64,000 bases of DNA, taken from the NCBI GenBank assembly GCA_963855995.1, contig OY979717.1, forward strand, positions 49,975,744 to 50,039,743, written 5' to 3'. The stretch comes from Muricea muricata. Its lineage: Eukaryota; Cnidaria; Anthozoa; Malacalcyonacea; Plexauridae. Made by a program: the position numbers and the translations under genes. A model generated the notes under the pieces. The model did no database searches and had not been told where the DNA came from. It saw only the letters and a list, made by a program, of their open reading frames with translations. Every line of letters begins with the position of its first letter. Within the stretch, counting starts at the first letter, position 1. Of this stretch, positions 40,777 to 64,000 are shown one piece after another.

Positions 40777-40784
40777 TATAAAAT
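40777..40784 (+). promoter_or_regulatory. TATA-box candidate for the left-arm coiled-coil gene
   Basis: TATAAAAT lies 73 bases upstream of the ATG at 40857 and is mirrored at 43108-43115 for the right-arm copy. A start site about 30 bases downstream would leave a short 5' UTR. Confidence 0.5.
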
Positions 40785-40856
40785 GATAATTTTGAGTCGG
40801 TAAGAGCATGCCGCTTGCAGCGCTCACAGAGATAAGACTTTTAGATTGCCAATTTA

Positions 40857-41177
40857 ATGGAGGAGAACTTATCGCGGTTACATGACCTGAACTTATCGCG
40901 GTTACATGACCTGAACAAGCGTGTGGCAGAGGCAAGAAAAAAAGTTGAATATTTGAAAAAAAAGAGAAATGCTTTATACCTTCGCAAAAGGACGGTTGAC
41001 GTACAAACCTGGATGTTAAACAATTTGGTAGACGATGCATGCCGTGGCCTCAAAGAAATGAGAAGACTTAGAAACAACCAGGGAACGCTGTGCTTATATT
41101 TGTTATGTAGGATAGATCAAATAGAAATTCATCATCTAATGAAAAGCTGTAGTACAGCTTCTAATGAAAAGCTGTAG
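40857..41177 (+). CDS. Small coiled-coil protein, left-arm copy
   Basis: An intact 106-codon frame. Residues 4-19 hold an exact duplication of LSRLHDLN, encoded by a 24-bp direct repeat. Residues about 20-45 form a basic coiled coil (KRVAEARKKVEYLKKKR), followed by a mixed helical part with VDDACRGLKEMRRLRNN and a short hydrophobic LCLYLL. A TATA-like box lies upstream, and an AATAAA overlaps the region immediately after the stop, giving a compact gene typical of mobile elements. The mirrored copy at 43035-42715 differs by two residues (AEARKK versus AETRKR), so the frame has been kept in both arms. The family is not recognised; a DNA-binding or structural role would be a guess. Confidence 0.65.
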   Translation: MEENLSRLHDLNLSRLHDLNKRVAEARKKVEYLKKKRNALYLRKRTVDVQTWMLNNLVDDACRGLKEMRRLRNNQGTLCLYLLCRIDQIEIHHLMKSCSTASNEKL

Positions 41178-41403
41178 TAAATAAAGGATACAAACCTGTT
41201 GAGTTTGTAGACGTTGTTTTATTTGCTTGTTCTTAATACATTCACCCCACACCGGTCTCACATTGACCAAACATAGACTTTTGTCGGCCCCACACCACCC
41301 TCTAATCAACCTCGTATAAGCAGATGGTCATCTGCATATACCAATAGTTGGGATCTACACAATGGTTATAGCTGTCAATACCTAACAGTTAGGGCCTTAT
41401 CAG

Positions 41404-41576
41404 CATTTGAGCACCTGCTCATAACTGCTCATGAGCACATGCTCATACGCTCATAGGTCCCGATGTGGCTAGCCAAGTTAGTATAGCTATATTTTGTTAG
41501 TCTTGTACAAGTTTATGCGATGAGCAGATGAGCAGGTGCTCATAACTGCTCATGAGCACATGCTCATACGCTCATA
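41404..41576. repeat. TGAGCA/TGCTCA palindrome clusters
   Basis: About 45-60 bp tracts of TGCTCATAACTGCTCATGAG type occur at 41404-41457 and 41519-41576. They are mirrored at 42316-42374 and 42435-42489; further copies sit at 40636-40694 and 43198-43256. So six tracts flank all three genes of the palindromic element. They could be protein-binding arrays or replication or recombination sites; nothing in the sequence decides which. Confidence 0.8.
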
Positions 41577-41648
41577 CGTCCCTATGTGGCCCGACAGTTG
41601 TAACCCTCCCACATATTAAAATAATATCAAACTCGGTATGTATATATA

Positions 41649-41656
41649 ATTTTATT
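41649..41656 (-). terminator. Poly(A) signal of the C2H2 gene
   Basis: Minus-strand AATAAA about 30 bases past the stop codon of the zinc-finger frame. Confidence 0.5.
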
Positions 41657-41684
41657 GAGAACAATATGACAAATATTAATGTAG

Positions 41685-42296
41685 TTAATAATCTTCTTCA
41701 TCATCACTGTCCTCAGTGAAACTGTAGTCTTTCAAATGCCATTTAATTAGAAATTTTCTCTTATTGACAGCTGCTTCCATAGCCTCTTCTGGATCAAAAT
41801 GATCATCGTTCACGAGCGCATCCTTTGTTTCCATTATTTTCTTATGCACTGGATCTTTCTTTAGTTGTTGTATCCATTGGAGACGCTGCAAATAGATACT
41901 TTCCAATTCCTTTTGGAGCTCAGGCAGAATATTAGAGTAAGCTGTTTCCCCAGCGGTTTCCTCATCCAGACCACTTTGAGTCAAATTCATCTTCATCTCC
42001 TGAAAAGCCGCCTTATGCTTTTGCATCGCTTCTTCTACCATAGGCATCCAAGGATCCGCTTCTTCCTCCTCAGTCTCCGAGTCTCCTGTTATCGAACTCT
42101 GAGACCCGTCAGTTGCAACGCTCGAAGCATCATCTTCTGAGCTCTGAATTTCTGTTTCTGACATTTCTCTCTCCTCGCTTTTCAGCGGACAATGCTCGTT
42201 TTCGTGTCGACGGAGATTGAAACCACGATTAAATGCTTTCCCGCAAAATTTACAGCTCATTCCGCTAGAACTGACTGTGTAGAAATGCCTTGTCAC
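41685..42296 (-). CDS. C2H2 zinc-finger protein with acidic and helical tail
   Basis: A single-exon 203-codon frame in the unique centre of the palindromic element. One classical C2H2 finger lies near the N-terminus (Cys15, Cys18, His31, His35; GKAFNRGFNLRRH). Residues about 45-85 are strongly acidic and Ser-rich (SETEEEEADP), then a helical region about 90-190 follows (LPELQKELESIYLQRLQWIQ), ending in an acidic DSDDEEDY. A methionine at residue 13, just before the finger, is an alternative start. A poly(A) signal follows the stop. A finger plus acidic region fits a DNA-binding regulator or an accessory protein of the element. The intact frame within decayed surroundings suggests recent activity. 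The family is not named with confidence. Confidence 0.75.
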   Translation of the reverse strand: MTRHFYTVSSSGMSCKFCGKAFNRGFNLRRHENEHCPLKSEEREMSETEIQSSEDDASSVATDGSQSSITGDSETEEEEADPWMPMVEEAMQKHKAAFQEMKMNLTQSGLDEETAGETAYSNILPELQKELESIYLQRLQWIQQLKKDPVHKKIMETKDALVNDDHFDPEEAMEAAVNKRKFLIKWHLKDYSFTEDSDDEEDY

Positions 42297-42714
42297 TGAG
42301 CAGCACTGTATTTTTATGAGCGTATGAGCATGTGCTCATGAGCAGTTATGAGCACCTGCTCATCTGCTCATCGCATAAACTTGTACAAGACTAACAAAAT
42401 ATAGCTATACTAACTTGGCTAGCCACATCGGGACCTATGAGCGTATGAGCATGTGCTCATGAGCAGTTATGAGCAGGTGCTCAAATGCTGATAAGGCCCT
42501 AACTGTTAGGTATTGACAGCTATAACCATTGTGTAGATCCCAACTATTGGTATATGCAGATGACCATCTGCTTATACGAGGTTGATTAGAGGGTGGTGTG
42601 GGGCCGACAAAAGGTCTATGTTGGGTCAATGTGAGACCGGTGTGGGGTGAATGTATTAAGGACAAGCAAATAAAACAACGTCTACAAACTCAACAGGTTT
42701 GTATCCTTTATTTA

Positions 42715-43035
42715 CTACAGCTTTTCATTAGAAGCTGTACTACAGCTTTTCATTAGATGATGAATTTCTATTTGATCTATCCTACATAACAAATATAAGC
42801 ACAGCGTTCCCTGGTTGTTTCTAAGTCTTCTCATTTCTTTGAGGCCACGGCATGCATCGTCTACCAAATTGTTTAACATCCAGGTTTGTACGTCAACCGT
42901 CCTTTTGCGAAGGTATAAAGCATTTCTCTTTTTCTTCAAATATTCAACTCTTTTTCTTGTCTCTGCTACACGCTTGTTCAGGTCATGTAACCGCGATAAG
43001 TTCAGGTCATGTAACCGCGATAAGTTCTCCTCCAT
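42715..43035 (-). CDS. Small coiled-coil protein, right-arm copy
   Basis: Mirror copy of the 40857-41177 gene with 104 of 106 residues identical and the same LSRLHDLN duplication. It is transcribed toward the central zinc-finger gene, again with a TATAAAAT upstream (43115-43108) and AATAAA at the stop. Confidence 0.65.
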   Translation of the reverse strand: MEENLSRLHDLNLSRLHDLNKRVAETRKRVEYLKKKRNALYLRKRTVDVQTWMLNNLVDDACRGLKEMRRLRNNQGTLCLYLLCRIDQIEIHHLMKSCSTASNEKL

Positions 43036-43647
43036 TAAATTGGCAATCTAAAAGTCTTATCTCTGTGAGCGCTGCAAGCGGCATGCTCTTACCGACTCAA
43101 AATTATCATTTTATACTATTAGCAGGATAACTAAAAACCAGTCAGATTTTAATATGGTATGTTTCATATGTGCTCGGCCATCGGGCCACATAGGGCCTTA
43201 TGAGCGTATGAGCATGTGCTCATGAGCAGTTATGAGCAGATGCTCATCTGCTCATCGCATAAACTTGTACGAGACTAACAAAATATAGCTCTACTGTCTG
43301 TAATACTTACAAAAATAAATTATTCCAAACGTTAATCCGTGTGTTAATTTGTGCAAACCAAGAAACGCTCTAATATTTTTCTCCAAAATCAGTACGATTT
43401 TGTATTCGTCATACCCCCTTTATCTCCCTTTTCATGAACCATACATGAACCCCCTGTCCAGTCTTTTTTATAATACGCTTGAAGACATCAACATCCGAAA
43501 ATGGAAACAGTTGGAGCTTTACCTTCACCAGGCGTTATTTTGCCAACAGCTATAATCCATCTATTTGGTATACTATCGGAAAACGGTATAGAAGAAAAGC
43601 AATGCCATTTCTGTTTTGAAGCTATCTAGGCCGAAGAGGTACTCGCT

Positions 43648-43818
43648 ATGAATACACCGTGTTGTCACCAAGGTGCTCACTGTGAGTGTTTTAGACATTG
43701 GGCAGCATCGTCCGTGGTCGACGGGACAGTACGTTGTGGCTATTGCTGGACATTATTCCCGGACAATCAACTATGTTTTTTATGTTTGGAAAAAAGAGCG
43801 ACAACGAACAGCTTATGA
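43648..43818 (+). CDS. Cys-rich mini-protein (possible zinc-binding)
   Basis: A 56-codon frame starting MNTPCCHQGAHCECFRHW and continuing RCGYCWTLFPDNQLCFLCLE has eight Cys and three His spaced as in small zinc-binding folds. It lies in the segment present only in the right arm of the palindromic element. Shortly downstream (43872-43940) another frame gives ECGQVTYCGCLW, also Cys-rich, so this may be one broken or spliced gene. No family is recognised, and chance cannot be excluded at this length. Confidence 0.35.
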   Translation: MNTPCCHQGAHCECFRHWAASSVVDGTVRCGYCWTLFPDNQLCFLCLEKRATTNSL

Positions 43819-44085
43819 TAACTAATTGTTGACACACAACAGTGCACGCAGAATGTATAATGCTAGCCCGATCAGTGCTTTGACGTCGTCCTGGAATGCG
43901 GACAAGTTACATACTGTGGGTGTCTTTGGACTGATGTGTGAACATCATAAGACCAGCAGGACAAACAGTATCTAATATCTAAAACAAACAGTATCTAAAC
44001 CTATATATGTATACTTATACTTAAGGTAACGTAAAATTTTCATTTTGTCAATACATCTTTCTAAAAACGTGTTTTTTCCGAATAC

Positions 44086-44256
44086 CGCCGTGCGCACATC
44101 CTCGTGTGGATCGAATAATGCGCACATCCTCGCGTGCATCCGGATAGTGCGAACATTCTCGCGTGTATCGGATAGTGCACAAATCCTCACGTGCATCGGG
44201 ATAGTGCACACACCCTCGCGTGTATCGGGATAGTGCGCACCTCCTAGCGTGCGCAT
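44086..44256. repeat. Tandem repeat of about 32 bp
   Basis: Five to six imperfect units with the core GATAGTGCGCACATCCTCGC and GTGTATCGG. They lie in the right-arm-only segment; the open frames over them are repeat artefacts. Confidence 0.8.
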
Positions 44257-44734
44257 ATCCTTGCAATGACGTCATTTCTCTACATACAGGCTTGGATACT
44301 AATTACTTCCGGCGCCATACGGGGGGGGGGGGGGGTAATGCTACTTACAATAATCGAGGAAAATCAGAACAATAATAAGATATATTTATATCCTATGCCA
44401 TGTAATCAATCTTGACCGGCAACACGCAAAGATAATGTTTATAAACCTATTTGAATATTTATAAGAAGAAATTGCATGAGTTTGCCTACTGTGGATATTG
44501 TTTCAAAGAATCCTCGATATTTTCCATTTCTAGTAAAAATTAGATCGTCTCCGGCCAGCAATTTGAAAATAATACGTCCGCTCCACTTTTGAAGATGCGC
44601 TCCAGTTTTTAATACGTTTTCTGCCAGGCGCTTCTCAACGCACATATGCATAACAAATAATTGCGCGCGCATGACTCGCGCCACCAGTGAACTCAATATA
44701 ACTGGAAGGCTACCTGAGGCGGGAAATTTGAAGC

Positions 44735-46180: not shown

Positions 46181-46213
46181 CAAAATTTGGCTTCAAATCC
46201 AACAGCTGGGCAG

Positions 46214-46252
46214 GTATGTACTTTATCTTATGCGACTGGAATGGATCCGCGT
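46214..46252 (+). repeat. 39-bp motif before the outer satellite
   Basis: GTATGTACTTTATCTTATGC plus GACTGGAATGGATCCGCGT matches 57278-57316 at about 36 of 39 positions, and its mirror at 62299-62337. Both plus-strand copies are followed within about 100 bases by a 9-bp satellite. Confidence 0.85.
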
Positions 46253-46331
46253 TACAATTCCATGACATATAGGCGCCAGTTCACATAGGTCAATAAACGA
46301 TGTATCTATAAATACCATAACCAATATACAC

Positions 46332-49300
46332 ACTATAGGTTCTATAGGTACTATTATTATAGGTTTTATAGGTACTATAGGTTTTATAGGTACTATAGGT
46401 TTTATAGGTACTATAGGTTTTATAGGTGCTATAGGTTTTATAGGTACTATAGGTTTTATAGGTTCTATAGGTATTATAGGTTTTATAGGTACTATAGGTT
46501 TTATAGGTACTATAGGTTTTATAGGTACTATAGGTACTATAGGTTTTATAGGTGCTATAGGTTTTATAGGTTTTATAGGTGCTATAGGTTTTATAGGTAC
46601 TATAGGTTTTATAGGTACTATAGGTTTTATAGGTTCTATAGGTACTATAGGTTTTATAGGTACTATAGGTTTTATAGGTTTTATAGGTGCTATAGGTTTT
46701 ATAGGTACTATAGGTTTTATAGGTACTATAGGTTTTATAGGTTCTATAGGTACTATAGGTTTTATAGGTACTATAGGTTTTATAGGTACTATAGGTACTA
46801 TAGGTTTTATAGGTACTATAGGTTTTATAGGTACTATAGGTTTTATAGGTACTATAGGTTTTATAGGTACTATAGGTTTTATAGGTACTATAGGTACCAT
46901 AGGTTTTATAGGTACTATAGGTACTATAGGTTTTATAGGTACTATAGGTTTTATAGGTACTATAGGTTTTATAGGTACTATAGGTACTACAGGTTTTATA
47001 GGTACTATAGGTTTTATAGGTACTATAGGTTTTATAGGTTCTATAGGTTTTATAGGTTTTTTAGGTACTATAGGTACTATAGGTTTTATAGGTGCTATAG
47101 GTTTTATAGGTACTATAGGTTTTATAGGTGCTATAGGTTTTATAGGTACTATAGGTTTTATAGGTACTATAGGTTTTATAGGTACTATAGGTACTACAGG
47201 TTTTATAGGTACTATAGGTTTTATAGGTACTATAGGTTTTATAGGTGCTATAGGTTTTATAGGTGCTATAGGTTTTATAGGTACTATAGGTTTTATAAGT
47301 ACTATAGGTTTTATAGGTACTATAGGTTTTATAGGTACTATAGGTACTATAGGTTTTATAGGTGCTATAGGTTTTATAGGTTTTATAGGTGCTATAGGTT
47401 TTATAGGTACTATAGGTTTTATAGGTACTATAGGTTTTATAGGTTCTATAGGTACTATAGGTTTTATAGGTACTATAGGTTTTATAGGTTTTATAGGTGC
47501 TATAGGTTTTATAGGTACTATAGGTTTTATAGGTACTATAGGTTTTATAGGTTCTATAGGTACTATAGGTTTTATAGGTACTATAGGTTTTATAGGTACT
47601 ATAGGTACTATAGGTTTTATAGGTACTATAGGTTTTATAGGTACTATAGGTTTTATAGGTACTATAGGTTTTATAGGTACTATAGGTTTTATAGGTACTA
47701 TAGGTACCATAGGTTTTATAGGTACTATAGGTACTATAGGTTTTATAGGTACTATAGGTTTTATAGGTACTATAGGTTTTATAGGTACTATAGGTACTAC
47801 AGGTTTTATAGGTACTATAGGTTTTATAGGTACTATAGGTTTTATAGGTTCTATAGGTTTTATAGGTTTTTTAGGTACTATAGGTACTATAGGTTTTATA
47901 GGTGCTATAGGTTTTATAGGTACTATAGGTTTTATAGGTGCTATAGGTTTTATAGGTACTATAGGTTTTATAGGTACTATAGGTTTTATAGGTACTATAG
48001 GTACTACAGGTTTTATAGGTACTATAGGTTTTATAGGTACTATAGGTTTTATAGGTGCTATAGGTTTTATAGGTGCTATAGGTTTTATAGGTACTATAGG
48101 TTTTATAAGTACTATAGGTTTTATAGGTACTATAGGTACTATAGGTTTTATAGGTACTATAGGTACTATAGATTTTATAGGTACTATAGGTTTTATAGGT
48201 ACTATAGGTACTATAGGTACTATAGGTTTTATAGGTACTATAGGTTTTATAGGTACTATAGGTTTTATAGGTACTATAGGTTTTATAGGTACTATAGGTT
48301 TTATAGGTACTATAGGTTTTATAGGTACTATAGGTGCTATAGGTTTTATAAGTACTATAGGTTTTATAGGTACTATAGGTTTTATAGGTACTATAGGTTT
48401 TATAGGTGCTATAGGTTTTATAGGTGCTATAGGTTTTATGGGTACTATAGGTTTTATAGGTACTATAGGTTTTATAGGTACTATAGGTTTTATAGGTACT
48501 ATAGGTACCATAGGTTTTATAGGTACTATAGGTACTATAGGTTTTATAGGTACTATAGGTTTTATAGGTACTATAGGTTTTATAGGTACTATAGGTACTA
48601 CAGGTTTTATAGGTACTATAGGTTTTATAGGTACTATAGGTTTTATAGGTTCTATAGGTTTTATAGGTTTTTTAGGTACTATAGGTACTATAGGTTTTAT
48701 AGGTGCTATAGGTTTTATAGGTACTATAGGTTTTATAGGTGCTATAGGTTTTATAGGTACTATAGGTTTTATACGTACTATAGGTTTTATAGGTACTATA
48801 GGTACTACAGGTTTTATAGGTACTATAGGTTTTATAGGTACTATAGGTTTTAAAGGTTTTTTAGGTACTATAGGTACTATAGGTTTTATAGGTGCTATAG
48901 GTTTTATAGGTACTATAGGTTTTATAGGTACTATAGGTTTTATAGGTGCTATAGGTTTTATAGGTACTATAGGTTTTATAGGTACTATAGGTTTTATAGG
49001 TACTATAGGTTTTATAGGTACTATAGGTTTTATAGGTACTATAGGTGCTATAGGTTTTATAAGTACTATAGGTTTTATAGGTACTATAGGTTTTATAGGT
49101 ACTATAGGTTTTATAGGTGCTATAGGTTTTATAGGTGCTATAGGTTTTATGGGTACTATAGGTTTTATAGGTACTATAGGTTTTATAGGTACTATAGGTT
49201 TTATAGGTACTATAGGTACCATAGGTTTTATAGGTACTATAGGTACTATAGGTTTTATAGGTACTATAGGTTTTATAGGTACTATAGGTTTTATAGGTAC

Positions 49301-52300
49301 TATAGGTACTACAGGTTTTATAGGTACTATAGGTTTTATAGGTACTATAGGTTTTAAAGGTTTTTTAGGTACTATAGGTACTATAGGTTTTATAGGTGCT
49401 ATAGGTTTTATAGGTACTATAGGTTTTATAGGTACTATAGGTTTTATAGGTGCTATAGGTTTTATAGGTACTATAGGTTTTATAGGTACTATAGGTTTTA
49501 TAGGTACTATAGGTTTTATAGGTACTATAGGTTTTATAGGTACTATAGGTGCTATAGGTTTTATAAGTACTATAGGTTTTATAGGTACTATAGGTTTTAT
49601 AGGTACTATAGGTTTTATAGGTGCTATAGGTTTTATAGGTGCTATAGGTTTTATGGGTACTATAGGTTTTATAGGTACTATAGGTTTTATAGGTACTATA
49701 GGTTTTATAGGTACTATAGGTACCATAGGTTTTATAGGTACTATAGGTACTATAGGTTTTATAGGTACTATAGGTTTTATAGGTACTATAGGTTTTATAG
49801 GTACTATAGGTACTACAGGTTTTATAGGTACTATAGGTTTTATAGGTACTATAGGTTTTATAGGTTCTATAGGTTTTATAGGTTTTTTAGGTACTATAGG
49901 TACTATAGGTTTTATAGGTGCTATAGGTTTTATAGGTACTATAGGTACTATAGGTTTTATAGGTACTATAGGTTTTATAGGTACTATAGGTTTTATAGGT
50001 ACTATAGGTTTTATAGGTACTATAGGTTTTATAGGTACTATAGGTACCATAGGTTTTATAGGTACTATAGGTACTATAGGTTTTATAGGTACTATAGGTT
50101 TTATAGGTACTATAGGTTTTATAGGTACTATAGGTACTACAGGTTTTATAGGTACTATAGGTTTTATAGGTACTATAGGTTTTATAGGTTCTATAGGTTT
50201 TATAGGTTTTTTAGGTACTATAGGTACTATAGGTTTTATAGGTGCTATAGGTTTTATAGGTACTATAGGTTTTATAGGTGCTATAGGTTTTATAGGTACT
50301 ATAGGTTTTATAGGTACTATAGGTTTTATAGGTACTATAGGTACTACAGGTTTTATAGGTACTATAGGTTTTATAGGTACTATAGGTTTTATAGGTGCTA
50401 TAGGTTTTATAGGTGCTATAGGTTTTATAGGTACTATAGGTTTTATAAGTACTATAGGTTTTATAGGTACTATAGGTACTATAGGTTTTATAGGTACTAT
50501 AGGTACTATAGATTTTATAGGTACTATAGGTTTTATAGGTACTATAGGTACTATAGGTACTATAGGTTTTATAGGTACTATAGGTTTTATAGGTACTATA
50601 GGTTTTATAGGTACTATAGGTTTTATAGGTACTATAGGTTTTATAGGTACTATAGGTTTTATAGGTACTATAGGTGCTATAGGTTTTATAAGTACTATAG
50701 GTTTTATAGGTACTATAGGTTTTATAGGTACTATAGGTTTTATAGGTGCTATAGGTTTTATAGGTGCTATAGGTTTTATGGGTACTATAGGTTTTATAGG
50801 TACTATAGGTTTTATAGGTACTATAGGTTTTATAGGTACTATAGGTACCATAGGTTTTATAGGTACTATAGGTACTATAGGTTTTATAGGTACTATAGGT
50901 TTTATAGGTACTATAGGTTTTATAGGTACTATAGGTTTTATAGGTACTATAGGTTTTATAGGTACTATAGGTGCTATAGGTTTTATAAGTACTATAGGTT
51001 TTATAGGTACTATAGGTTTTATAGGTACTATAGGTTTTATAGGTGCTATAGGTTTTATAGGTGCTATAGGTTTTATGGGTACTATAGGTTTTATAGGTAC
51101 TATAGGTTTTATAGGTACTATAGGTTTTATAGGTACTATAGGTACCATAGGTTTTATAGGTACTATAGGTACTATAGGTTTTATAGGTACTATAGGTTTT
51201 ATAGGTACTATAGGTTTTATAGGTACTATAGGTACTACAGGTTTTATAGGTACTATAGGTTTTATAGGTACTATAGGTTTTATAGGTTCTATAGGTTTTA
51301 TAGGTTTTTTAGGTACTATAGGTACTATAGGTTTTATAGGTGCTATAGGTTTTATAGGTAATATAGGTTTTATAGGTGCTATAGGTTTTATAGGTACTAT
51401 AGGTTTTATAGGTACTATAGGTTTTATAGGTACTATAGGTACTACAGGTTTTATAGGTACTATAGGTTTTATAGGTACTATAGGTTTTAAAGGTTTTTTA
51501 GGTACTATAGGTACTATAGGTTTTATAGGTGCTATAGGTTTTATAGGTACTATAGGTTTTATAGGTACTATAGGTTTTATAGGTGCTATAGGTTTTATAG
51601 GTACTATAGGTTTTATAGGTACTATAGGTACTATAGGTTTTATAGGTACTATAGGTGCTATAGGTTTTATAAGTACTATAGGTTTTATAGGTACTATAGG
51701 TTTTATAGGTACTATAGGTTTTATAGGTACTATAGGTTTTATAGGTGCTACAGGTTTTATAGGTACTATAGGTTTTATAGGTACTATAGGTTTTATAGGT
51801 ACTATAGGTACTATAGGTTTTATAGGTACTATAGGTGCTATAGGTTTTATAAGTACTATAGGTTTTATAGGTACTATAGGTTTTATAGGTACTATAGGTT
51901 TTATAGGTGCTATAGGTTTTATAGGTGCTATAGGTTTTATAGGTACTATAGGTACTATAGGTTTTATAGGTACTATAGGTTTTATAGGTACTATAGGTTT
52001 TATAGGTACTATAGGTTTTATAGGTACTATAGGTTTTATAGGTGCTATAGGTTTTATAGGTGCGATAGGTTTTATAGGTACTATAGGTACTATAGGTTTT
52101 ATAGGTACTATAGGTTTTATAGGTACTATAGGTTTTATAGGTACTATAGGTACTATAGGTTTTATAGGTACTATAGGTTTTATAGGTACTATAGGTTTTA
52201 TAGGTACTATAGGTACTACAGGTTTTATAAGGTACTATAGGTTTTATAGGTTTTATAGGTACTATAGGTTTTATAGGTACTATAGGTTTTATAGGTACTA

Positions 52301-52872
52301 TAGGTACTATAGGTTTTATAGGTACTATAGGTGCTATAGGTTTTATAAGTACTATAGGTTTTATAGGTACTATAGGTTTTATAGGTACTATAGGTTTTAT
52401 AGGTGCTATAGGTTTTATAGGTGCCATAGGTTTTATAGGTACTATAGGTACTATAGGTTTTATAGGTACTATAGGTTTTATAGGTACTATAGGTTTTATG
52501 GGTACTATAGGTACTATAGGTTTTATAGGTACTATAGGTTTTATAGGTACTATAGGTACTACAGGTTTTATAAGGTACTATAGGTTTTATAGGTTTTATA
52601 GGTACTATAGGTTTTATAGGTACTATAGGTTTTATAGGTTCTATAGGTACTGTAGGTTCTATATGTACTATAGGTTTTATAGGTACTATAGGTACTATAG
52701 GTTTTATAGGTACTATAGGTTTTATAGGTACTATAGGTTTTATAGGTACTATAGGTTTTATAGGTACTATAGGTTTTATAGGTACTATAGGTTTTATAGG
52801 TAGTATAGGTCTTATAGGTGCTATAGGTTTTATTGGTACTCTAGGTACTATTGGAACAATAGGTTTTATAGC
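46332..52872. repeat. 6.5 kb satellite of 9/18-bp unit (TATAGGTAC TATAGGTTT)
   Basis: The array alternates 9-bp words TATAGGTAC and TATAGGTTT with rare variants (GCTATAGGT, ACTACAGGT, TTTTTTAGG, TTTATAAGT). Higher-order copies exist: 46561-47325 recurs 810 bases on, and 47581-48590 recurs 2340 bases on, both without a visible mismatch. Both offsets are multiples of 18. Because the unit is a multiple of three without stops, frames of over 1300 codons stay open on both strands (GTIGFI on plus, PIVPIK on minus). These are treated as repeat artefacts. Two single-base insertions (TTATAAGG near 52228 and 52572) shift the frame at the right end. Confidence 0.95.
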
Positions 52873-53159
52873 CAATATATTTGCTAAATAGGTTAAGGTA
52901 TTTGTTAAATAGGTTATTCCCCACTGATCAATACGCATACAGTCAACCTAGATCAATTAGTCTGCCTCGTTCCCAGAAAAGGCCCTGGGGGCGAGGATGG
53001 TATACAATCAATTTATGGTAATAAGTCAGGTACACGGCCAAAAATTGAACAGGTTGTTGGCGCATGATGGTTGAACAACACCGGAACAATGTTGTTATCA
53101 TGGTTGAACAGTACTGTTGAAACAACACTGTTGAACAATATTGTTGTAACAATATTGTT

Positions 53160-53870
53160 TGGGCTTGATGGTTGAACAATGCTGTTCCACGTTGTTGGAA
53201 CAAGGGCTTAACAATACTGATAAAACAACGATGTTAAATGTTGTCAGAACAATATTGTTAGGCATTGTTGTTTTATCATGCCTCGACAATATTGTTATAA
53301 CAATATTGTTCGGACTTGATGGATGAACAATGCTGTTCGATGTTGTTGGAACAAGGCTTAACAATACTGATAAAACAAAGATGTTAAATGTTGTCAGAAC
53401 AGTATTGTTAGGCATTGTTGTTTTATCATGCCTCGACAATATTGCTGTAACAATATTGTTCGGACTTGATGAATGAACACTGATGTTCGATGTTGTTGGA
53501 ACAAGGCTCAACAATACTGATAAAACAAAGATGTTAAATGTTGTCAGAACAATATTGTTAGGCATTGTTGTTTTATCATGCCTCGACAATATTGTTATAA
53601 CAATATTGTTCGGACTTGATGGATGAACAATGCTGTTCGATGTTGTTGGAACAAGGCTTAACAATACTGATAAAACAAAGATGTTAAATGTTGTCAGAAC
53701 AGTATTGTTAGGCATTGTTGTTTTATCATGCCTCGACAATATTGCTGTAACAATATTGTTCGGACTTGATGAATGAACACTGATGTTCGATGTTGTTGGA
53801 ACAAGGCTCAACAATACTGATAAAACAAAGATGTTAAATGTTGTCAGAACAATATTGTTAGGCATTACAC
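53160..53870. repeat. 150-bp minisatellite in 300-bp higher-order units
   Basis: The word TTTTATCATG recurs at 53271, 53421, 53571 and 53721. Alternate copies match (ATTGTTATAAC versus ATTGCTGTAAC types), giving a 300-bp dimer. Units are full of AACAATATTGTT palindromes. The 288-codon minus-strand frame here is a repeat artefact. Confidence 0.9.
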
Positions 53871-53877
53871 AGCCAGA

Positions 53878-54345
53878 AACGCCACAGACTTGCTGCAAGT
53901 TGTGGACTTTACCGGCTTGCTGCAAGTTGTCATCAAGTTGCAGCAAGCCTGTTGACTTCATCAAGTTGCAGCAAGTCTGTGAGTATCAGACTTGCTGCAA
54001 ATTGATATTTGCAGACTTGCAAAGCTTGTGGATAGCTTGTGGATATCAAGTCTTGACAAGTCTGTCGTAGCAACTTGCAGCAAGTCAGTTGAACGCATCA
54101 ATGCTGATGCAAGTTGCGAAAATCAGACTTGCTGCAAGTTGATTTTTCAGATTTGCTGCAAGTTGTTCAAACACCTTGCAGCAAGTCTGATTTTCACAAA
54201 TTGCATCAGGCTTGGTGCGTTCGTCAGACTTGCTGCAAGTTGATAATTTCAATCTTGCTGCAAGTTGATATTTTCAGATTTGCTGCAAGTTGATATCACA
54301 GACTTGCTGCAAGACTGCTGCAAATTTGCAGTGAAAATCAGACTT
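53878..54345. repeat. GACTTGCTGCAAGTTG palindrome cluster
   Basis: More than a dozen copies of ACTTGCTGCAAGT or its complement CTTGCAGCAAGT in both orientations, with irregular spacing. A few further copies occur at 56655-56720. Confidence 0.85.
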
Positions 54346-54641
54346 GATGCGATTTAATATTTCAATGCAGTCTTTCTGCCGCTTTCTGCAATGTTATTGA
54401 AAAAACTTGCTTGTGAATAACAAGTCAAAGCTAGCCTGTATTTATATATAAGGGCTGACAGACCTAACAGTCGTGAGCGTAAAAATAATTGAAATTTATC
54501 CTCAAACATTGCCATTGGTTGGAAAATGTTAAAAATACGTAAGAAAAACTATTCTTGACATTTAAAATAAAGCGACACTAAAATCATATGCTAGAATTAA
54601 ATTTTCGCTGCAGTGACTTTATTTATTTTGGTTAATGACAA

Positions 54642-55380
54642 ATTTTGTCACAAATGAAAGCGATAATAAATTAATTTTATTTGAACGACGTTTCGATGTC
54701 ATCTTTATACATCATTTTCAAGTTCATTTAAAGTTCGTTACTATTAGTGTGTTCATATGGCGAGTTCATGATTGCGTAAGCAACTAATTACATGAAAAGG
54801 GCGCGTGCAACTAAAACGCGGCAAAATAAAATGCTTTAGAAATTACAATTATACTCTACAATTATATTACATATATACATATATAAATTAGTAATTAAAC
54901 ACATACATAACAATTACATACAAACATGTTAAACAAATACTTTAGCAAATACAAAGGATCGTAAACTGTTTCTCAGTTTTAAGGAAGTGTCAGGGAAAGT
55001 ATGATTGCTTACTGTATGAGATGCTGTACATTAAACAACACAAGCCCAGTCTCAACACACAGTCTGACTCGATTCAGGCTAAAGTATTTGTTTAACATGT
55101 TTGTATGTAATTGTTATGTATGTGTTTAATTACTAATTTATATATGTATATATGTAATATAATTGTAGAGTATAATTGTAATTTCTAAAGCATTTTATTT
55201 TGCCGCGTTTTAGTTGCACGTGCCCTTTTCATGTAATTAGTTGCTTACGCAATCATGAACTCGCCATATGAACACACTAATAGTAACGAACTTTAAATGA
55301 ACTTGAAAATGATGTAAAGATGACATCGAAACGTCATTCAAATAAAATTAATTTATTATCGCTTTCATTTGTGACAAAAT
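54642..55380. mobile_element. Penelope-like element fragment with 303-bp inverted arms
   Basis: Arms 54642-54944 and 55078-55380 are mirror copies. The centre encodes the C-terminus of a Penelope-like protein (next entry). Each arm has a degenerate hammerhead-like tail: GATGTAAAGATGACATC followed by GAAACGTC and a short pairing stem TTGAA/TTCAA, but with ATGATGT in place of CTGATGA. Confidence 0.75.
54979..55095 (+). pseudogene. C-terminal remnant of a Penelope-like GIY-YIG retroelement protein
   Basis: The frame LRKCQGKYDCLLYEMLYIKQ, HKPSLNTQSDSIQAKVFV, stop matches the typical C-terminal end of Penelope-like elements, where the endonuclease domain ends in an LKPSLNxQSDSI-like block. No reverse transcriptase is present; the frame breaks upstream. 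Confidence 0.7.
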
Positions 55381-56640
55381 GTATGTCGAAAGCTTTCCTA
55401 ATCATAATGACAAATTGTCACGAATAGTCGATATAGCGATTGGCTTTTATAATTTAAGAACAATCTAACAACCAATCAAATCAAGATCAGACCGTATTCG
55501 TCATTTTTTGACAAACAGCAAGCTACAGCAGGCAACAGCAAGAAAGATATTAAAAAACAAAACAACAAAAGATGTCAAGTCTTTGAAAGGTTGAATAGAG
55601 ATTGAAGCGCTTTACTTGGTGTACAGATAGGAGTTTAGACTAAAAATGACATTTTAATCATGTTTCTTACCATTTTCATAGGCGAAAAGACATTTCGTGT
55701 TTCGGATATTTATAAAGACATTCAACAGTATCCCAGCGAAAACGACGAAGAAAAGTCAAGCTTGCATGTGGCACTACTGCACCATACATAAGGTAATTGT
55801 AATCTCAACGTGTTCTCTATTTAAAACGTGTACAAGTTAGAATAGCTCTAATAGTGTTGAGAGCATTTGCGAAAAGCAGATCGTTTCGGACTTTTGTTGT
55901 TTTTTTGGGCAGTTTTGATAATGCATGCATCTGCAAAATAAATTTCTGCGTCAATATATAGAGGATATTACACTGCGGTGCGAAGATATGAATTTTATCT
56001 TCGAGTGGTTAATGGTTTCTTGTATTATTTCCATTTTTTTCGGAACAATCATGTAGTTTTTTTCTTTAAACAAAGGTGAAAATTGGTTTGCTGTTCTTAC
56101 AAAACATCGCCATTTTGAAAATACAAAATTATTGGCGAGAAATGATCACGTGATCGATATCTTCACTAGTGAAGATATGGAAAATATCTTACGGTGTATT
56201 TTCAGTATCCTACTGTCAACTATATAATAAAGATAATATACTTGACTAAGATATAAAATACTTAGCTAGAAAAGATTCAAACTTTACAGTACTATCCACT
56301 GAGATTAAAAATTCTATTTGAAATTTCTCTGTAGAATTTTAAGGAATTAAAAGTGATGCATATGATCTTAGACTTGACCATCCTACGCAAGTGAAATATT
56401 GACATTATATGGAGGAACATACTAAAAAATATTAAAAAGAAGAAGACTGTGCTAACAGATGACAATGTTTTAGCTAGCCTGCTGATAATAAAATGGTACT
56501 TAACGGTTTTTAATGTTAATATTTTTTAACGGTTTTTAATGTTAATGTAAATGACAAATGTATACGAGTATATACTGTAAGGCGGATAAAATAAAGCAAT
56601 TCATTTATTTCCTGAGTTTTTTATGGTTTTGTCAATATGA
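55381..56640. other. Unassigned part of the 4.2 kb insert
   Basis: AT-rich, with a small symmetric motif TATCTTCACTAGTGAAGATA near 56158. No gene recognised. Confidence 0.4.
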
Positions 56641-56789
56641 TATGCAACCTTGATTTCGACAACTTGCAGAAGTCTGCAGTTCGCAACTTGCTGCAAGTCT
56701 GCCGCTCGCAACTTGCAGTTGTTTTAACAAGATTGTTCAAAGTTGTTGTCAGCAAAAAACATTTCTGTTATCATGTTTATTTTAGTTGT

Positions 56790-57135
56790 TCTAACAGCAT
56801 TGTTTAGGCTTGTTGAGTCATCAACCGGGAACAGCATTGTTCCAACAACCGAGAACAGCACCGTTGTTTGAACAACCAGGAACAGTATTGTGTCATCAAC
56901 CGGGAACAGCATTGTTCTGACAATCGAAAACAGTACTGTTGTTTGAACAACCAGGAACAGTATTGATTCATCAACCGGGAACAGTACTGTTCCAACAACC
57001 GAGAACAGCACTGTTGTTTCAACAAGCAGGAACAGTATTGTGTCATCAACCGAAAACAGTACTGTTGTTTGAACAACCAGGAACAGTATTGTCTCATCAA
57101 CCGGGAACAGCATTGTTCTGACAACCGGGAACAAA
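56790..57135. repeat. Minisatellite of CAACCGGGAACAGTATTGTT type
   Basis: About 20-22 bp words (CATCAACCGGGAACAG, TTGTTTGAACAACCAGGAAC) repeat about 15 times with irregular higher order. The open frames on both strands are repeat artefacts. Confidence 0.85.
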
Positions 57136-57277
57136 TTGATAACCTGGGTTGTTGAATGCTGCCCCAACAACATTGCTACATCCTGATCTCAACAGGCGTT
57201 GAACAACTTGTTGACAGCTTGCAACAACATGATGATTTTTACGCGTGTAATAAGTTGTATAGCTTGCTATAAACAGT

Positions 57278-57316
57278 GTATGTACTTCATCTTATGGGAC
57301 TGGAATGGATCCGTGT
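57278..57316 (+). repeat. 39-bp motif before the inner satellite, left arm
   Basis: GTATGTACTTCATCTTATGG plus GACTGGAATGGATCCGTGT, related to 46214-46252 and mirrored exactly at 62299-62337. Confidence 0.85.
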
Positions 57317-57359
57317 GACCAGTGCTAATATATACAGTAGTGATATCCGTTTAGTAGTT

Positions 57360-57635
57360 ATTGCCGTTATGGCGTCATTCGTGTTATTGGTGTTATTGCC
57401 GTTACTGGTGTTAATGGCGTTATTGGCGTTATTGCTGTTATTGGCGTTGTTGCCGTTATTGGTGTTGTTAGTGTTGTTGCCGTTATTGCTGTTATTGCCG
57501 TTATTAGTGTTATTGCTGTTATTGCCGTTATTGCTGTTATTGCCGTTCTTGGTGTTATTAGAGTTATTGCCGTTCTCGCTGTTATTGGCGTTATTGCTGT
57601 TTTTGCCGTTATTAGCGTTATTGCTGTTCGAAATT
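57360..57635. repeat. 9-bp satellite GTTATTGCC/GTTATTGCT, left arm
   Basis: About 30 imperfect copies of a 9-bp unit. It has the same period as the outer TATAGGT satellite but a different sequence. Mirrored at 61980-62255. The Leu-rich and Thr/Ala/Ile-rich frames are artefacts. Confidence 0.9.
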
Positions 57636-57989
57636 TTCCGTGTTTACATCGAGTTATATCAACACGGCTCTTAGCCAATCAGTGTTCAGGATTTACAAAT
57701 GCTATATTATAAAATTGTACAACGGGCTTGTAAATAAAATTGTATTGAGTCGAATTGCTCATTTGTTTTTACTGTACGACGGGCTTCAAGATGCTTCACT
57801 ACATGCTTGTGCTGTCACAACTAATTACTCTTACTAAGGGAGTGTATATTGATGAAAAAGCCGAGAATATCCTGCATCTATTGCTCGCAGAATATGAAAA
57901 GAATCCTGCTGATGGTAAATACGATAACATCATATTAACTTCGAAAAGTTTTTATTTGGTGCCCGATTAGTCATTTTACACTACCATTA

Positions 57990-59853
57990 ATGTGTCCCAT
58001 CCATAATGTGCAACTAGTTTGTAAAAAATGGCAATCCGTGCTTTCTAAAGAAAATTATTTAAATCCACGTATGGTATATGATACTGGTGGAAATGTTGTA
58101 TTCATTCAGAGATATTACGAATGTGCTTCGTCTGGAAGTTCAACGTGGATGAAACACACCTTTCTTTCAGCATCAAAATCCATTATGGATGCTATTCCAC
58201 GAAATTTGGCAAATAAGCTCCCAATTATTTTACATTACAAAAGTGCATTGACACATGACCTGCTTGATAATCTCTGGACAAGCATTGAAATAGGACAAAA
58301 TTTTGTTAAAATTACCGAGCGCTTGGCATCGTTAAACTACCGCAATTTTCAGCGAAGAAAGTTAATTCTTGGAGAGCATACTAGTAATGCAGCTGACCTA
58401 CAGTCGTTTTATGGAAATGTCTTATATTCTTTTCCTAGTAACGATAAACTGATGCACATATTCCTATGCCATTATGAAGAAACTAAACACATTTTTCATG
58501 CTGAAATGCAGAAGTTGACTGGCACCGTAATGTCATTTGACCACACTTTTAAAGTCAGCAAGCATATCGGAATTGTAAGAAATGACAATTCTTTTGTTAA
58601 ACAATTTGATGGATGTTTTTTCGGGATGAATGGATATGGCGAGGTGGTTGCATGGCGTTTGACAAAGACAACGGGTTTTAAGGAAATAGAAGACTTATTG
58701 TTTGACTTAAAAGAACGAATGCTAAACAGCGGCATTAATTTGGAAGTTATAATTCTCGACGACTGTTGTAAAATGCGCAATAGCTATCAAAACGTTTTCG
58801 GCGGTAACGTAAAAATTAAACTTGATCTTTTTCACGCGTGTCAACGCGTTATACAAACATTAGATCATGATGGAATAAAAAATCAATTTTCAAGAGAGTT
58901 CGGTTTGATATTTAGAGTGGATGGTGACGTTGGCGAAGAAAGAGAAATGACCACACCAGAGCCTGAAGTAATAATTGCAAATCTTGAGCAACTCCTTTGT
59001 CGTTGGCAAGGTCAACTCAATGCAAAAACGCTGAAATCGGTTGATGACCTTAGAAGGCACATAAATAAAGGATGCTTGTCAGGAATTTTGCCGGGGGAGG
59101 GAACAGAAAAAAATGAGCGTTTACACCGACATTTGCGAAAGTCGCTGTTGGTTGGAGCTAATACAATTTCCCCTGAACTAGCTATTGCATGCCTCACATT
59201 AGCATTATACGTATGGAATAACAGGAAAAAAAGTGTCAAACACATAAAAAATCAGAGAGTTGTACCTATTATTCCAGCTGAATATTCAGAAGATATTTCT
59301 AATAACTGCGCTTCTTCAACAGCCCTGCCGTTCAAAGTGAACAATGACGCGTCCAAAGAAATTCCACCACCTTTTGCAGATAAAACCAAGGAAAGACTTG
59401 CCATGGGACCAACTGAACAAGATGCTGATCAGTGTGGTAACACCTTTCTGCACGTTACTGTTCTTGATGACTTGCTTAACAGCTCAACTGTGATGTATAT
59501 CATCGAAAGAACTTTGCAACTGTACGAGACTGTTCAAAAGATAAACAATCAATGTGCAATACGTAGCTTGAATCTCCTTGACTTTCCCTTATTATCAGGT
59601 TTTAAAGAGCACGCCTCTCTAATACGATGCTCTGACTACGACAATATAAATAATTTAGATGTAGACAAATTTGCATCAGTTGAGGAGGGCAAAAACAAAG
59701 AAACCCTAAAAAGAAACTTAAACTCTTTCAATTTGGATGTGGATACTGTGATCGGAGATGGTAATTGCTGTTTTCACAGTATTGCGCTCCAGCTGCACAA
59801 GTTATTTCCATTCTCAACAGAAGAGCTCTGCGATACTGATGACTCCGCGCATA
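57990..59853 (+). CDS. DDE-type transposase with start of an OTU-like domain, left-arm copy
   Basis: A large frame from ATG 57990; about 620 codons belong to the gene before it runs through the centre into the opposite arm (stop at 59897). N-terminal residues 2-45 (CPIH, PRMVYDTGGNVVFIQ, YYEC) look like a Cys/His DNA-binding module. The RNase H-like core has MSFDHTF (Asp184), VIILDDCC (Asp257/258), KLDLFHACQRV and GTEKNERLHRHLR (Glu373/376), an order resembling Mutator-like transposases, though the superfamily is not certain. At about 588-600, IGDGNCCFHSIALQL is the start of an OTU-like cysteine protease (Asp590, Cys593). The catalytic His region is absent, so the gene is 3'-truncated. A 71-codon frame at 57755-57970, kept in both arms, may be an upstream exon. 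Confidence 0.75.
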
Positions 59854-59875
59854 TATATATATGTATACGTATAAG
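59740..59875. other. Unpaired 136-bp centre of the giant palindrome
   Basis: The first 114 bases continue the left-arm gene into the OTU-like segment; the rest is ATATATATATGTATACGTAT. The right arm starts immediately after, at CATCCAAATTG. The OTU start is therefore single-copy. Confidence 0.8.
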
Positions 59876-61625
59876 CATCCAAATTGAAAGAGTTTAAGTT
59901 TCTTTTTAGGGTTTCTTTGTTTTTGCCCTCCTCAACTGATGCAAATTTGTCTACATCTAAATTATTTATATTGTCGTAGTCAGAGCATCGTATTAGAGAG
60001 GCGTGCTCTTTAAAACCTGATAATAAGGGAAAGTCAAGGAGATTCAAGCTACGTATTGCACATTGATTGTTTATCTTTTGAACAATCTCGTACAGTTGCA
60101 AAGTTCTTTCGATGATATACATCACAGTTGAGCTGTTAAGCAAGTCATCAAGAACAGTAACGTGCAGAAAGGTGTTACCACACTGATCAGCATCTTGTTC
60201 AGTTGGTCCCATGGCAAGTCTTTCCTTGGTTTTATCTGCAAAAGGTGGTGGAATTTCTTTGGACGCGTCATTGTTCACTTTGAACGGCAGGGCTGTTGAA
60301 GAAGCGCAGTTATTAGAAATATCTTCTGAATATTCAGCTGGAATAATAGGTACAACTCTCTGATTTTTTATGTGTTTGACACTTTTTTTCCTGTTATTCC
60401 ATACGTATAATGCTAATGTGAGGCATGCAATAGCTAGTTCAGGGGAAATTGTATTAGCTCCAACCAACAGCGACTTTCGCAAATGTCGGTGTAAACGCTC
60501 ATTTTTTTCTGTTCCCTCCCCCGGCAAAATTCCTGACAAGCATCCTTTATTTATGTGCCTTCTAAGGTCATCAACCGATTTCAGCGTTTTTGCATTGAGT
60601 TGACCTTGCCAACGACAAAGGAGTTGCTCAAGATTTGCAATTATTACTTCAGGCTCTGGTGTGGTCATTTCTCTTTCTTCACCAACGTCACCATCCACTC
60701 TAAATATCAAACCGAACTCTCTTGAAAATTGATTTTTTATTCCATCATGATCTAATGTTTGTATAACGCGTTGACACGCGTGAAAAAGATCAAGTTTAAT
60801 TTTTACGTTACCGCCGAAAACGTTTTGATAGCTATTGCGCATTTTACAACAGTCGTCGAGAATTATAACTTCCAAATTAATGCCGCTGTTTAGCATTCGT
60901 TCTTTTAAGTCAAACAATAAGTCTTCTATTTCCTTAAAACCCGTTGTCTTTGTCAAACGCCATGCAACCACCTCGCCATATCCATTCATCCCGAAAAAAC
61001 ATCCATCAAATTGTTTAACAAAAGAATTGTCATTTCTTACAATTCCGATATGCTTGCTGACTTTAAAAGTGTGGTCAAATGACATTACGGTGCCAGTCAA
61101 CTTCTGCATTTCAGCATGAAAAATGTGTTTAGTTTCTTCATAATGGCATAGGAATATGTGCATCAGTTTATCGTTACTAGGAAAAGAATATAAGACATTT
61201 CCATAAAACGACTGTAGGTCAGCTGCATTACTAGTATGCTCTCCAAGAATTAACTTTCTTCGCTGAAAATTGCGGTAGTTTAACGATGCCAAGCGCTCGG
61301 TAATTTTAACAAAATTTTGTCCTATTTCAATGCTTGTCCAGAGATTATCAAGCAGGTCATGTGTCAATGCACTTTTGTAATGTAAAATAATTGGGAGCTT
61401 ATTTGCCAAATTTCGTGGAATAGCATCCATAATGGATTTTGATGCTGAAAGAAAGGTGTGTTTCATCCACGTTGAACTTCCAGACGAAGCACATTCGTAA
61501 TATCTCTGAATGAATACAACATTTCCACCAGTATCATATACCATACGTGGATTTAAATAATTTTCTTTAGAAAGCACGGATTGCCATTTTTTACAAACTA
61601 GTTGCACATTATGGATGGGACACAT
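59876..61625 (-). CDS. DDE-type transposase, right-arm copy, truncated at the axis
   Basis: Mirror copy of the 57990 gene from ATG 61625. It is collinear for 583 residues with one visible amino-acid change (YEIVQ versus YETVQ). It keeps the same Asp, Asp and Glu motifs but ends at NSFNLD at the palindrome axis; the frame then reads through the centre to a stop at 59814 and lacks the OTU-like start. The two copies converge, so their transcripts would be fully complementary. Confidence 0.75.
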
Positions 61626-61979
61626 TAATGGTAGTGTAAAATGACTAATCGGGCACCAAATAAAAACTTTTCGAAGTTAATATGATGTTATCGTATTTAC
61701 CATCAGCAGGATTCTTTTCATATTCTGCGAGCAATTGATGCAGGATATTCTCGGCTTTTTCATCAATATACACTCCCTTAGTAAGAGTAATTAGTTGTGA
61801 CAGCACAAGCATGTAGTGAAGCATCTTGAAGCCCGTCGTACAGTAAAAACAAATGAGCAATTCGACTCAATACAATTTTATTTACAAGCCCGTTGTACAA
61901 TTTTATAATATAGCATTTGTAAATCCTGAACACTGATTGGCTAAGAGCCGTGTTGATATAACTCGATGTAAACACGGAA

Positions 61980-62255
61980 AATTTCGAACAGCAATAACGC
62001 TAATAACGGCAAAAACAGCAATAACGCCAATAACAGCGAGAACGGCAATAACTCTAATAACACCAAGAACGGCAATAACAGCAATAACGGCAATAACAGC
62101 AATAACACTAATAACGGCAATAACAGCAATAACGGCAACAACACTAACAACACCAATAACGGCAACAACGCCAATAACAGCAATAACGCCAATAACGCCA
62201 TTAACACCAGTAACGGCAATAACACCAATAACACGAATGACGCCATAACGGCAAT
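61980..62255. repeat. 9-bp satellite, right-arm mirror
   Basis: GGCAATAAC/AGCAATAAC units, the complement of 57360-57635. Confidence 0.9.
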
Positions 62256-62298
62256 AACTACTAAACGGATATCACTACTGTATATATTAGCACTGGTC

Positions 62299-62337
62299 AC
62301 ACGGATCCATTCCAGTCCCATAAGATGAAGTACATAC
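62299..62337 (-). repeat. 39-bp motif, right-arm mirror
   Basis: Exact complement of 57278-57316. Confidence 0.85.
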
Positions 62338-62520
62338 ACTGTTTATAGCAAGCTATACAACTTATTACCTGACTTATTACCATAAATTGATTGTATACCA
62401 TCCTCGCCCCCAGGGCCTTTTCTGGGAACGAGGCAGACTAATTGATCTAGGTTGACTGTATGCGTATTGATCAGTGGGGAATAACCTATTTAACAAATAC
62501 CTTAACCTATTTAGCAAATA

Positions 62521-64000
62521 TATTGGCTATAAAACCTATTGTTCCAATAGTACCTAGAGTACCAATAAAACCTATAGCACCTATAAGACCTATACTACCT
62601 ATAAAACCTATAGTACCTATAAAACCTATAGTACCTATAAAACCTATAGTACCTATAAAACCTATAGTACCTATAAAACCTATAGTACCTATAAAACCTA
62701 TAGTACCTATAGTACCTATAAAACCTATAGTACATATAGAACCTACAGTACCTATAGAACCTATAAAACCTATAGTACCTATAAAACCTATAGTACCTAT
62801 AAAACCTATAAAACCTATAGTACCTTATAAAACCTGTAGTACCTATAGTACCTATAAAACCTATAGTACCTATAAAACCTATAGTACCTATAAAACCTAT
62901 AGTACCTATAGTACCCATAAAACCTATAGTACCTATAAAACCTATAGTACCTATAAAACCTATAGTACCTATAGTACCTATAAAACCTATAGCACCTATA
63001 AAACCTATAGCACCTATAAAACCTATAGTACCTATAAAACCTATAGTACCTATAAAACCTATAGTACCTATAAAATCTATAGTACCTATAAAACCTATAG
63101 TACCTATAGTACCTATAGTACCTATAAAACCTATAGCACCTATAAAACCTATAGCACCTATAAAACCTATAGTACCTATAAAACCTATAGTACCTATAAA
63201 ACCTATAGTACTTATAAAACCTATAGCACCTATAGTACCTATAAAACCTATAGTACCTATAGTACCTATAAAACCTATAGTACCTATAAAACCTATAGTA
63301 CCTATAAAACCTATAGCACCTATAAAACCTATAGCACCTATAAAACCTATAGTACCTATAAAACCTATAGTACCTATAAAACCTGTAGTACCTATAGTAC
63401 CTATAAAACCTATAGTACCTATAAAACCTATAGTACCTATAAAACCTATAGCACCTATAAAACCTATAGCACCTATAAAACCTATAGTACCTATAAAACC
63501 TATAGTACCTTATAAAACCTGTAGTACCTATAGTACCTATAAAACCTATAGTATCTATAAAACCTATAGTACCTATAAAACCTATAGCACCTATAAAACC
63601 TATAGCACCTATAAAACCTATAGTACCTATAAAACCTATAGTACCTATAAAACCTATAGCACCTATAAAACCTATAGTACCTATAAAACCTATAGTACCT
63701 ATAGTACCTATAAAACCTATAGTACCTATAGTACCTATAAAACCTATAGTACCTATAAAACCTATAGCACCTATAAAACCTATAGTACCTATAGCACCTA
63801 AAAAACCTTTAAAACCTATAGTACCTATAAAACCTATAGTACCTATAAAACCTGTAGTACCTATAGTACCTATAAAACCTATAGTACCTATAAAACCTAT
63901 AGTACCTATAAAACCTATAGTACCTATAAAACCTATAGCACCTATAAAACCTATAGTACCTATAAAACCTATAGCACCTATAAAACCTATAGTACCTATA
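62521..64000. repeat. Outer 9/18-bp satellite, right arm, runs off the window
   Basis: CCTATAGTA/CCTATAAAA units, the complement of the right end of the 46332-52872 array. The order of variant units is kept near the junction, including the diverged first 100 bases and the frame-shifting TACCTTATAAAACC. Some 18-bp units differ in number from the left arm. Confidence 0.93.

Follow-up and report, generated by a model that had tools for sequence, protein, structure and literature searches.

How foldback transposons originate is debated; published ideas are that the transposase is lost while the ends lengthen, and that inner sequence is recruited (PMC4079207, PMC3573991; these and the other papers cited are used in excerpt). 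The closest known systems to the element described here are Mutator-type foldback elements, Galileo and maize Mu killer. Tm1 of Meloidogyne and Tetris of Drosophila virilis have long inverted ends, tandem repeats in variable number and target duplications of 8-10 bases (PMC3169594, PMC4079207). In extended terminal inverted repeat copies of Galileo (2RT, E-subfamily) inner sequence has been added to the inverted ends, with a centre of 441 inverted F1 spacer bases in many copies (PMC3573991), and the longest copy, of 9,021 bases, has ends of 4,246 and 4,680 bases with tandem repeats (PMC4168063). In Mu killer, the 5' part of the gene for a Mutator-type transposase is inversely duplicated along with its terminal repeat (PMC3440606). 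The element compared with them here lies in a 64,000-base stretch of the 453-Mb genome of Muricea muricata (C2:49975744-50039743), referred to below as the window. It is a foldback element of Mutator type, with the 5' half of the parental transposase gene inside each arm. We consider it highly probable that its mirror formed once, when a full-length DUF6729-DDE-OTU-CXC transposon had its 5' half inversely duplicated, and that the element is moved by the transposase of the full-length copies.

The Muricea element has the long inverted ends containing tandem repeats, the short middle and the dispersed copies with target duplications of a foldback transposon, and, like Mu killer, it inversely duplicates the 5' part of a transposase gene together with a terminal repeat. 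It differs from each system in its gene content or its spread. Where Tm1 has a transposase gene, the excerpt places it between the arms, whereas the Muricea element has the 5' part inside both arms; for Tetris the excerpt reports that no transposase gene was found. In contrast to both, the Muricea element has a near-identical full-length relative in the same genome. Galileo has a P superfamily transposase and 7-base duplications (PMC3573991); what it mirrors is spacer, not transposase gene, and its longest copy, as described in the excerpt, is without a transposase segment. Mu killer is treated as a single dominant locus silencing MuDR (PMC3440606), whereas the Muricea inverse duplication is two-ended and dispersed. 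No recognised case of a dispersed palindrome with mirrored transposase halves was found in the open-licence papers searched, the Galileo E subfamily being a partial precedent.

The initial annotation had proposed a foldback transposon, mirrored around a 136-base axis. The inverse repeat is indeed near perfect: 57247-59739 and 59876-62368 differ by three substitutions in 2,493 bases (57879, 58934 and 59530), with no indel, and the 136-base axis lies between them at 59740-59875. As proposed, the mirror extends into satellite, first through 162 bases without a difference (52871-53032 and 62366-62527) and then into an 18-base satellite, the first 365 bases of which are identical between the two arms. 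The proposed symmetry holds in that the arms match, but the left one is broken by a TA-flanked insertion of 4,210 bases (53035-57244). The right end had been expected near 69 kb; it falls at 65405, because the right arm is without the insertion and has a shorter satellite. Beyond 64000 the terminal motif does return in inverse orientation, followed by other DNA. The unit occupies 46213-65405, 19,193 bases including the nested insertion, with its right end 1,405 bases beyond the end of the window and the 8-base duplication GCTGGGCA on both sides. A head-to-head joining of two alleles is ruled out, since one target duplication encloses the whole unit. The parts of the unit are as follows.

46205..46212, no strand: left target-site duplication GCTGGGCA; right copy at 65406-65413, beyond the window
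46213..46335, + strand: outer terminus of 123 bases, starting GGTATGTACTTTATCTTATGCGACTGGAATGGATCCG; the inverse copy ends at 65405, beyond the window
46332..52871, + strand: left 18-base satellite, unit ACTATAGGTTTTATAGGT
52871..53032, + strand: 162-base block joining satellite to arm, the same in both arms
53035..57244, no strand: nested 4,210-base insertion, TA-flanked, in the left arm only and foreign to the element; empty site in the right arm
57247..59739, + strand: left mirror arm
57278..57319, + strand: internal copy of the terminal motif, 90% to 46214-46255
57357..57628, + strand: 9-base subterminal array (GTTATTGCC)
57939..59897, + strand: open frame of 652 codons with DUF6729-like and DDE regions and the start of OTU
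59740..59849, + strand: loop, first 110 bases, continuing the OTU coding sequence as in the full-length copies
59850..59875, no strand: loop, last 26 bases, AT-rich filler, absent at this place in the full-length copies
59876..62368, - strand: right mirror arm
59814..61676, - strand: mirrored open frame of 620 codons
62366..62527, - strand: mirrored 162-base block
62527..64000, - strand: right satellite, running on to about 65283 beyond the window

The left gene thus stays in frame for some 110 bases of the spacer at 59740-59875, the remainder of which is AT-rich. The 652-codon frame is cut by the axis in its C-terminal part, and its upstream part is out of frame through a 23-base deletion relative to the full-length copies. 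The internal copy of the terminal motif sits in each arm and also in the full-length copies, and is perhaps an older element end. Inside the nested element are tandem arrays of its own, of the types AACAATATTGTT and GACTTGCTGCAAGTTG, together with an inverted repeat at 54642-54946/55078-55380. At 62360-62381, adjoining the arm start, a 10-base direct repeat (GGTAATAAGT, other strand) with two bases between its copies resembles a target duplication with an excision footprint.

The probable origin of the mirror is suggested by the full-length, non-mirrored relative. A genome search with the protein of a relative gave two stop-free frames of 846 codons, 56% identical to it, at C3:44722846-44725305 and C14:7291734-7294193. 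Both full-length copies have the same outer 5' end as the mirrored unit, about 1.3-1.4 kb of satellite, the 162-base block, the arm and the first 110 loop bases. They then run straight past the turning point with the frame continuing, and the continued frame matches OTU above the Pfam cut-off. A further open frame downstream gives a weak MSL2-CXC match (E 0.0032, below cut-off) and is presumably a second exon. Because the parent matches the arms in its 5' end, its satellite and the beginning of its gene before running on, the foldback looks like the parent's 5' half, inversely copied; the parent passes through the turn, whereas every mirrored copy read turns there.

The two forms are very close. 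The left arm and loop in the window differ from a full-length copy by seven substitutions in 2,203 bases and one 23-base gap, while the majority sequence of the arms differs from the full-length copies by three substitutions and the 23-base block. This block is missing in every readable mirrored arm save one, E10B, which has two more parental alleles, as though a stretch of it came from a parent-type copy. Within C3:44710001-44728000 a long satellite lies about 14 kb into the full-length locus; in inverse orientation it is weakly similar (67%) to the arm's 9-base array. This satellite may belong to the missing 3' side of the full-length element.

Mirrored copies are dispersed in the genome, supporting the identity that the initial annotation had given the unit. 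A search with the arm gave at least 47 matches, head to head at many loci (best 40 of 1,303 candidates scored), and a search with the outer end, starting at window position 46213, gave at least 40 places (best 40 of 114 candidates scored); both counts are lower bounds. Further copies of the terminal motif followed by satellite thus exist, as had been anticipated. Twenty loci were read across arms and axis, most arms being complete and some deleted or partly covered; with C9 and C10, read at the axis only, the total is at least 22 mirrored copies. The target duplication is perfect at eight bases in 17 of the 19 copies with both ends read (7/8 in E7 and 6/8 in E13). Total length ranges from about 7.2 kb (E14) to 23.96 kb (E8), and some pairs have inserted into copies of one repeat, sometimes down to the identical base (E4/E12, oppositely oriented, and E16/E23). 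The C12 copy (C12:3067300-3069000) is one-armed: its second arm has been lost at the axis, and its loop match ends after 120 bases.

Assembly and read-hairpin artefacts, as is generally known, typically show inverse arms that are almost identical and separated by a short spacer. Twenty-two dispersed mirrored loci make a local artefact of either kind untenable here, and the target duplications and the 4.2-kb insertion with its empty site in the opposite arm leave it next to no probability.

All 22 copies have the same axis: at least one arm reaches the same last base, after which the loop starts. The loop is found in either orientation and is tandemly duplicated or rearranged in six copies (E5, E6, E14, E23, E24 and C10). 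With one axis in all, the mirror most simply formed once and then multiplied. Stepwise lengthening of the inverted repeats by recruitment of inner sequence, as in Galileo, would not be expected to give one axis and one loop, and we judge it highly improbable. Recruitment into inverted ends is on record, the inverted 441-base Galileo centre having spread to many copies (PMC3573991), and satellite length varies freely in the Muricea element; but here the arms match the parent throughout its 5' half, and the shorter arms are deletion derivatives, not growth steps.

A single inverse duplication could have arisen when a 3' end, broken or stalled, folded back within the OTU codons and served as primer for copying the strand to which it belonged, which would account for the loop of 110 bases and the filler of 26. 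Priming by the foldback of a broken end has been proposed as a route to inverse duplications, in yeast at double-strand breaks (PMC10622511); there it concerns chromosome rearrangements, whereas the product proposed here is a transposon. That product would have had two left ends, open to pairing and mobilisation by the transposase. In all 19 copies read at both ends, each terminus is of the 5' type of the parent. Pairing of two left ends must therefore be within the reach of the transposase, and the target duplications show that such units did move. A local source for the filler was sought, and no match of 12 bases or more was found in 18 kb around one full-length copy. Its longest matches elsewhere in the window, of 13 and 17 bases, lie in AT-rich runs.

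Target duplications in the Mutator/IS256 superfamily are 8-11 bases long. The eight bases seen here fall within this range and not at the seven of Galileo and the P superfamily, and the transposase has an IS256-type fold. Among 61 relatives of the protein, the Pfam MULE profile matched one (E 0.0047) and DDE_Tnp_ISL3 six, and no match to the FLYWCH zinc finger, which precedes the MULE domain in the Phantom subclass, was listed at E 0.01. DUF6729 matched in 46 of the 61 and OTU in 44, several of the relatives being partial. No mention of DUF6729 was found in the open-licence papers searched. Viral contigs gave two pattern matches and no confirmed relative, in a search that may leave out records near the genome of the window.

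The initial annotation had placed mirrored transposase genes inside the arms. Their location is as it had claimed, but the genes are incomplete and show no purifying selection. Across 40 mirrored arms there are 76 replacement, 23 silent and 5 stop changes, against a neutral expectation of 0.688/0.276/0.036 with transition weighting assumed, and frameshifting indels are common, one 1-base length variant occurring in 16 of the 40. The mirrored genes are not maintained, and a functional mirrored transposase is rejected for want of purifying selection, from which movement in trans can be inferred. It is very unlikely that the mirrored element is autonomous, its arm frames yielding a transposase, truncated at both the N and the C terminus, able to move it either alone or with help. 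The 652-codon open frame of the window copy would favour autonomy, as would the candidate D-D-E residues D201, D274 and E393, invariant or at least 90% conserved in the 61 relatives, and over the compared part most arms are free of in-frame stops. Against this stand the lack of a synonymous excess, the frame-shifting variant, the 23-base N-terminal deletion in all readable arms save E10B, and the cutting of OTU, a domain matched in most of the relatives.

The two arms of a copy nevertheless evolve together. We compared the arms of 20 copies over the unique part from window position 57646, excluding the first 400 bases with the 9-base array. Of 126 variable sites, 73 are confined to one arm of one copy (the partner arm being readable for 68), while 32 are private to one copy and yet present in both its arms. 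The remainder comprise seven in both arms of several copies, six mixed, seven in one arm on the same side in two copies and one in one arm on different sides; none of the 126 separates A from B arms. Mean arm distance is 0.22% within copies and 0.51% between them, and between copies it is much the same for arms of the same side (0.523%) and of opposite sides (0.526%). In ten copies exact identity runs 10-400 bases into the satellite within a copy (400 being the limit examined); between copies the mean is 78 and the longest run 286. Arm-to-arm conversion, as a term, was not met in the excerpts of the two Galileo papers (PMC3573991, PMC4168063).

Arm exchange is weaker at the outer ends, where 14 of 19 copies carry different alleles of a C/T marker at their left and right ends (p=0.032, one-sided, tested against an even chance; the right-end allele of E20 was taken from the alignment). 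The C end lies on the A side of the loop in seven and on the B side in six of the 13 copies with known orientation, and this random orientation suggests arm-to-arm crossover. After insertion, then, the arms would exchange sequence by gene conversion, crossovers between them would flip the loop, and the satellites would lengthen and shorten independently. Satellite arms measure 0.95 to 8.1 kb in the ten copies measured and are unequal between the two arms; one E8 arm is 14.1 kb, 44% of it satellite. No gradient of conversion with distance from the axis was seen (p=0.41), and GC-biased conversion is rejected, with ten weak-to-strong and ten strong-to-weak changes among the both-arm variants.

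Several points weigh against this account of the element's origin and later evolution. The whole analysis is based on one assembly. The two full-length copies share flanks (99.8% and 98.2%) and so count as one duplicated locus, and their 3' end was not found within 18 kb, which keeps them candidates as complete or mobile elements. No microhomology was seen at the turn. Some mirrored copies, the window's included, keep a long open frame, from which a truncated active protein is possible. The own partner is the nearest arm for only 27 of 40 arms, six of these being ties, and the argument from loop flipping depends on one marker, a single site. Homogenisation is incomplete: E10 and E12 have in common a 124-base deletion and four variants, all confined to one arm, and a one-arm deletion is likewise common to E3 and E13.

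These sister copies also bear on whether each transposition rebuilds one arm through a single-stranded hairpin intermediate, so that the likeness of the arms would owe nothing to ordinary gene conversion. The 32 sites with copy-private variants in both arms would fit such rebuilding. E10 and E12, however, lie at different sites with different target duplications and still have their arm-specific variants and deletion in common, and E3 and E13 have their one-arm deletion. Unequal arms thus survive transposition, and we think hairpin rebuilding improbable, gene conversion after insertion being the reading we prefer.

In every mirrored copy, the upstream region of the parent and the 5' half of its gene are present in both orientations. 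A transcript starting in one arm and crossing the loop would fold into a hairpin, about 4 kb long and matching the transposase mRNA of the parent, and arm-to-arm conversion with loop flipping would keep it near perfect. By analogy, the element might be a self-spreading silencer, a jumping animal counterpart of Mu killer whose hairpin RNA shuts down the parent whose enzyme it uses, an idea we put forward tentatively and hold to be rather doubtful. Poly(A)-like signals inside the arm tell against the hairpin, as they could stop a transcript before the axis.

Mirrored family and full-length relative occur in one genome at about 0.14% divergence (the three majority substitutions, in the unique arm part). 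Divergence so small, with a turning point readable to the base, makes birth by a single inverse duplication directly testable. The 22 copies are replicate palindromes for measuring gene conversion and crossover between arms, and they offer a ready system in which to ask whether parent elements in animals are silenced by their inverse duplications, as happens with Mu killer in maize.

An unrelated palindrome lies at 40227-44326 in the window, with 1.3-kb arms (98.9%), mirrored frames of 110 codons and a central acidic, C2H2-like (zinc-finger-like) frame. Its family is also dispersed, with both arms present at 16 loci or more, 732-846 bases apart; at 14 of 16 the spacing is 746-748, or 738 in the window. 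Among the matches listed, arm scores are equal in at least five pairs and differ somewhat in others. The genome therefore has at least two dispersed mirrored families, and mirroring may be a recurring way for transposons to evolve. Two more self-complementary stretches occur in the window, at 16154-16817 (96%) and 28419-28923 (80%).
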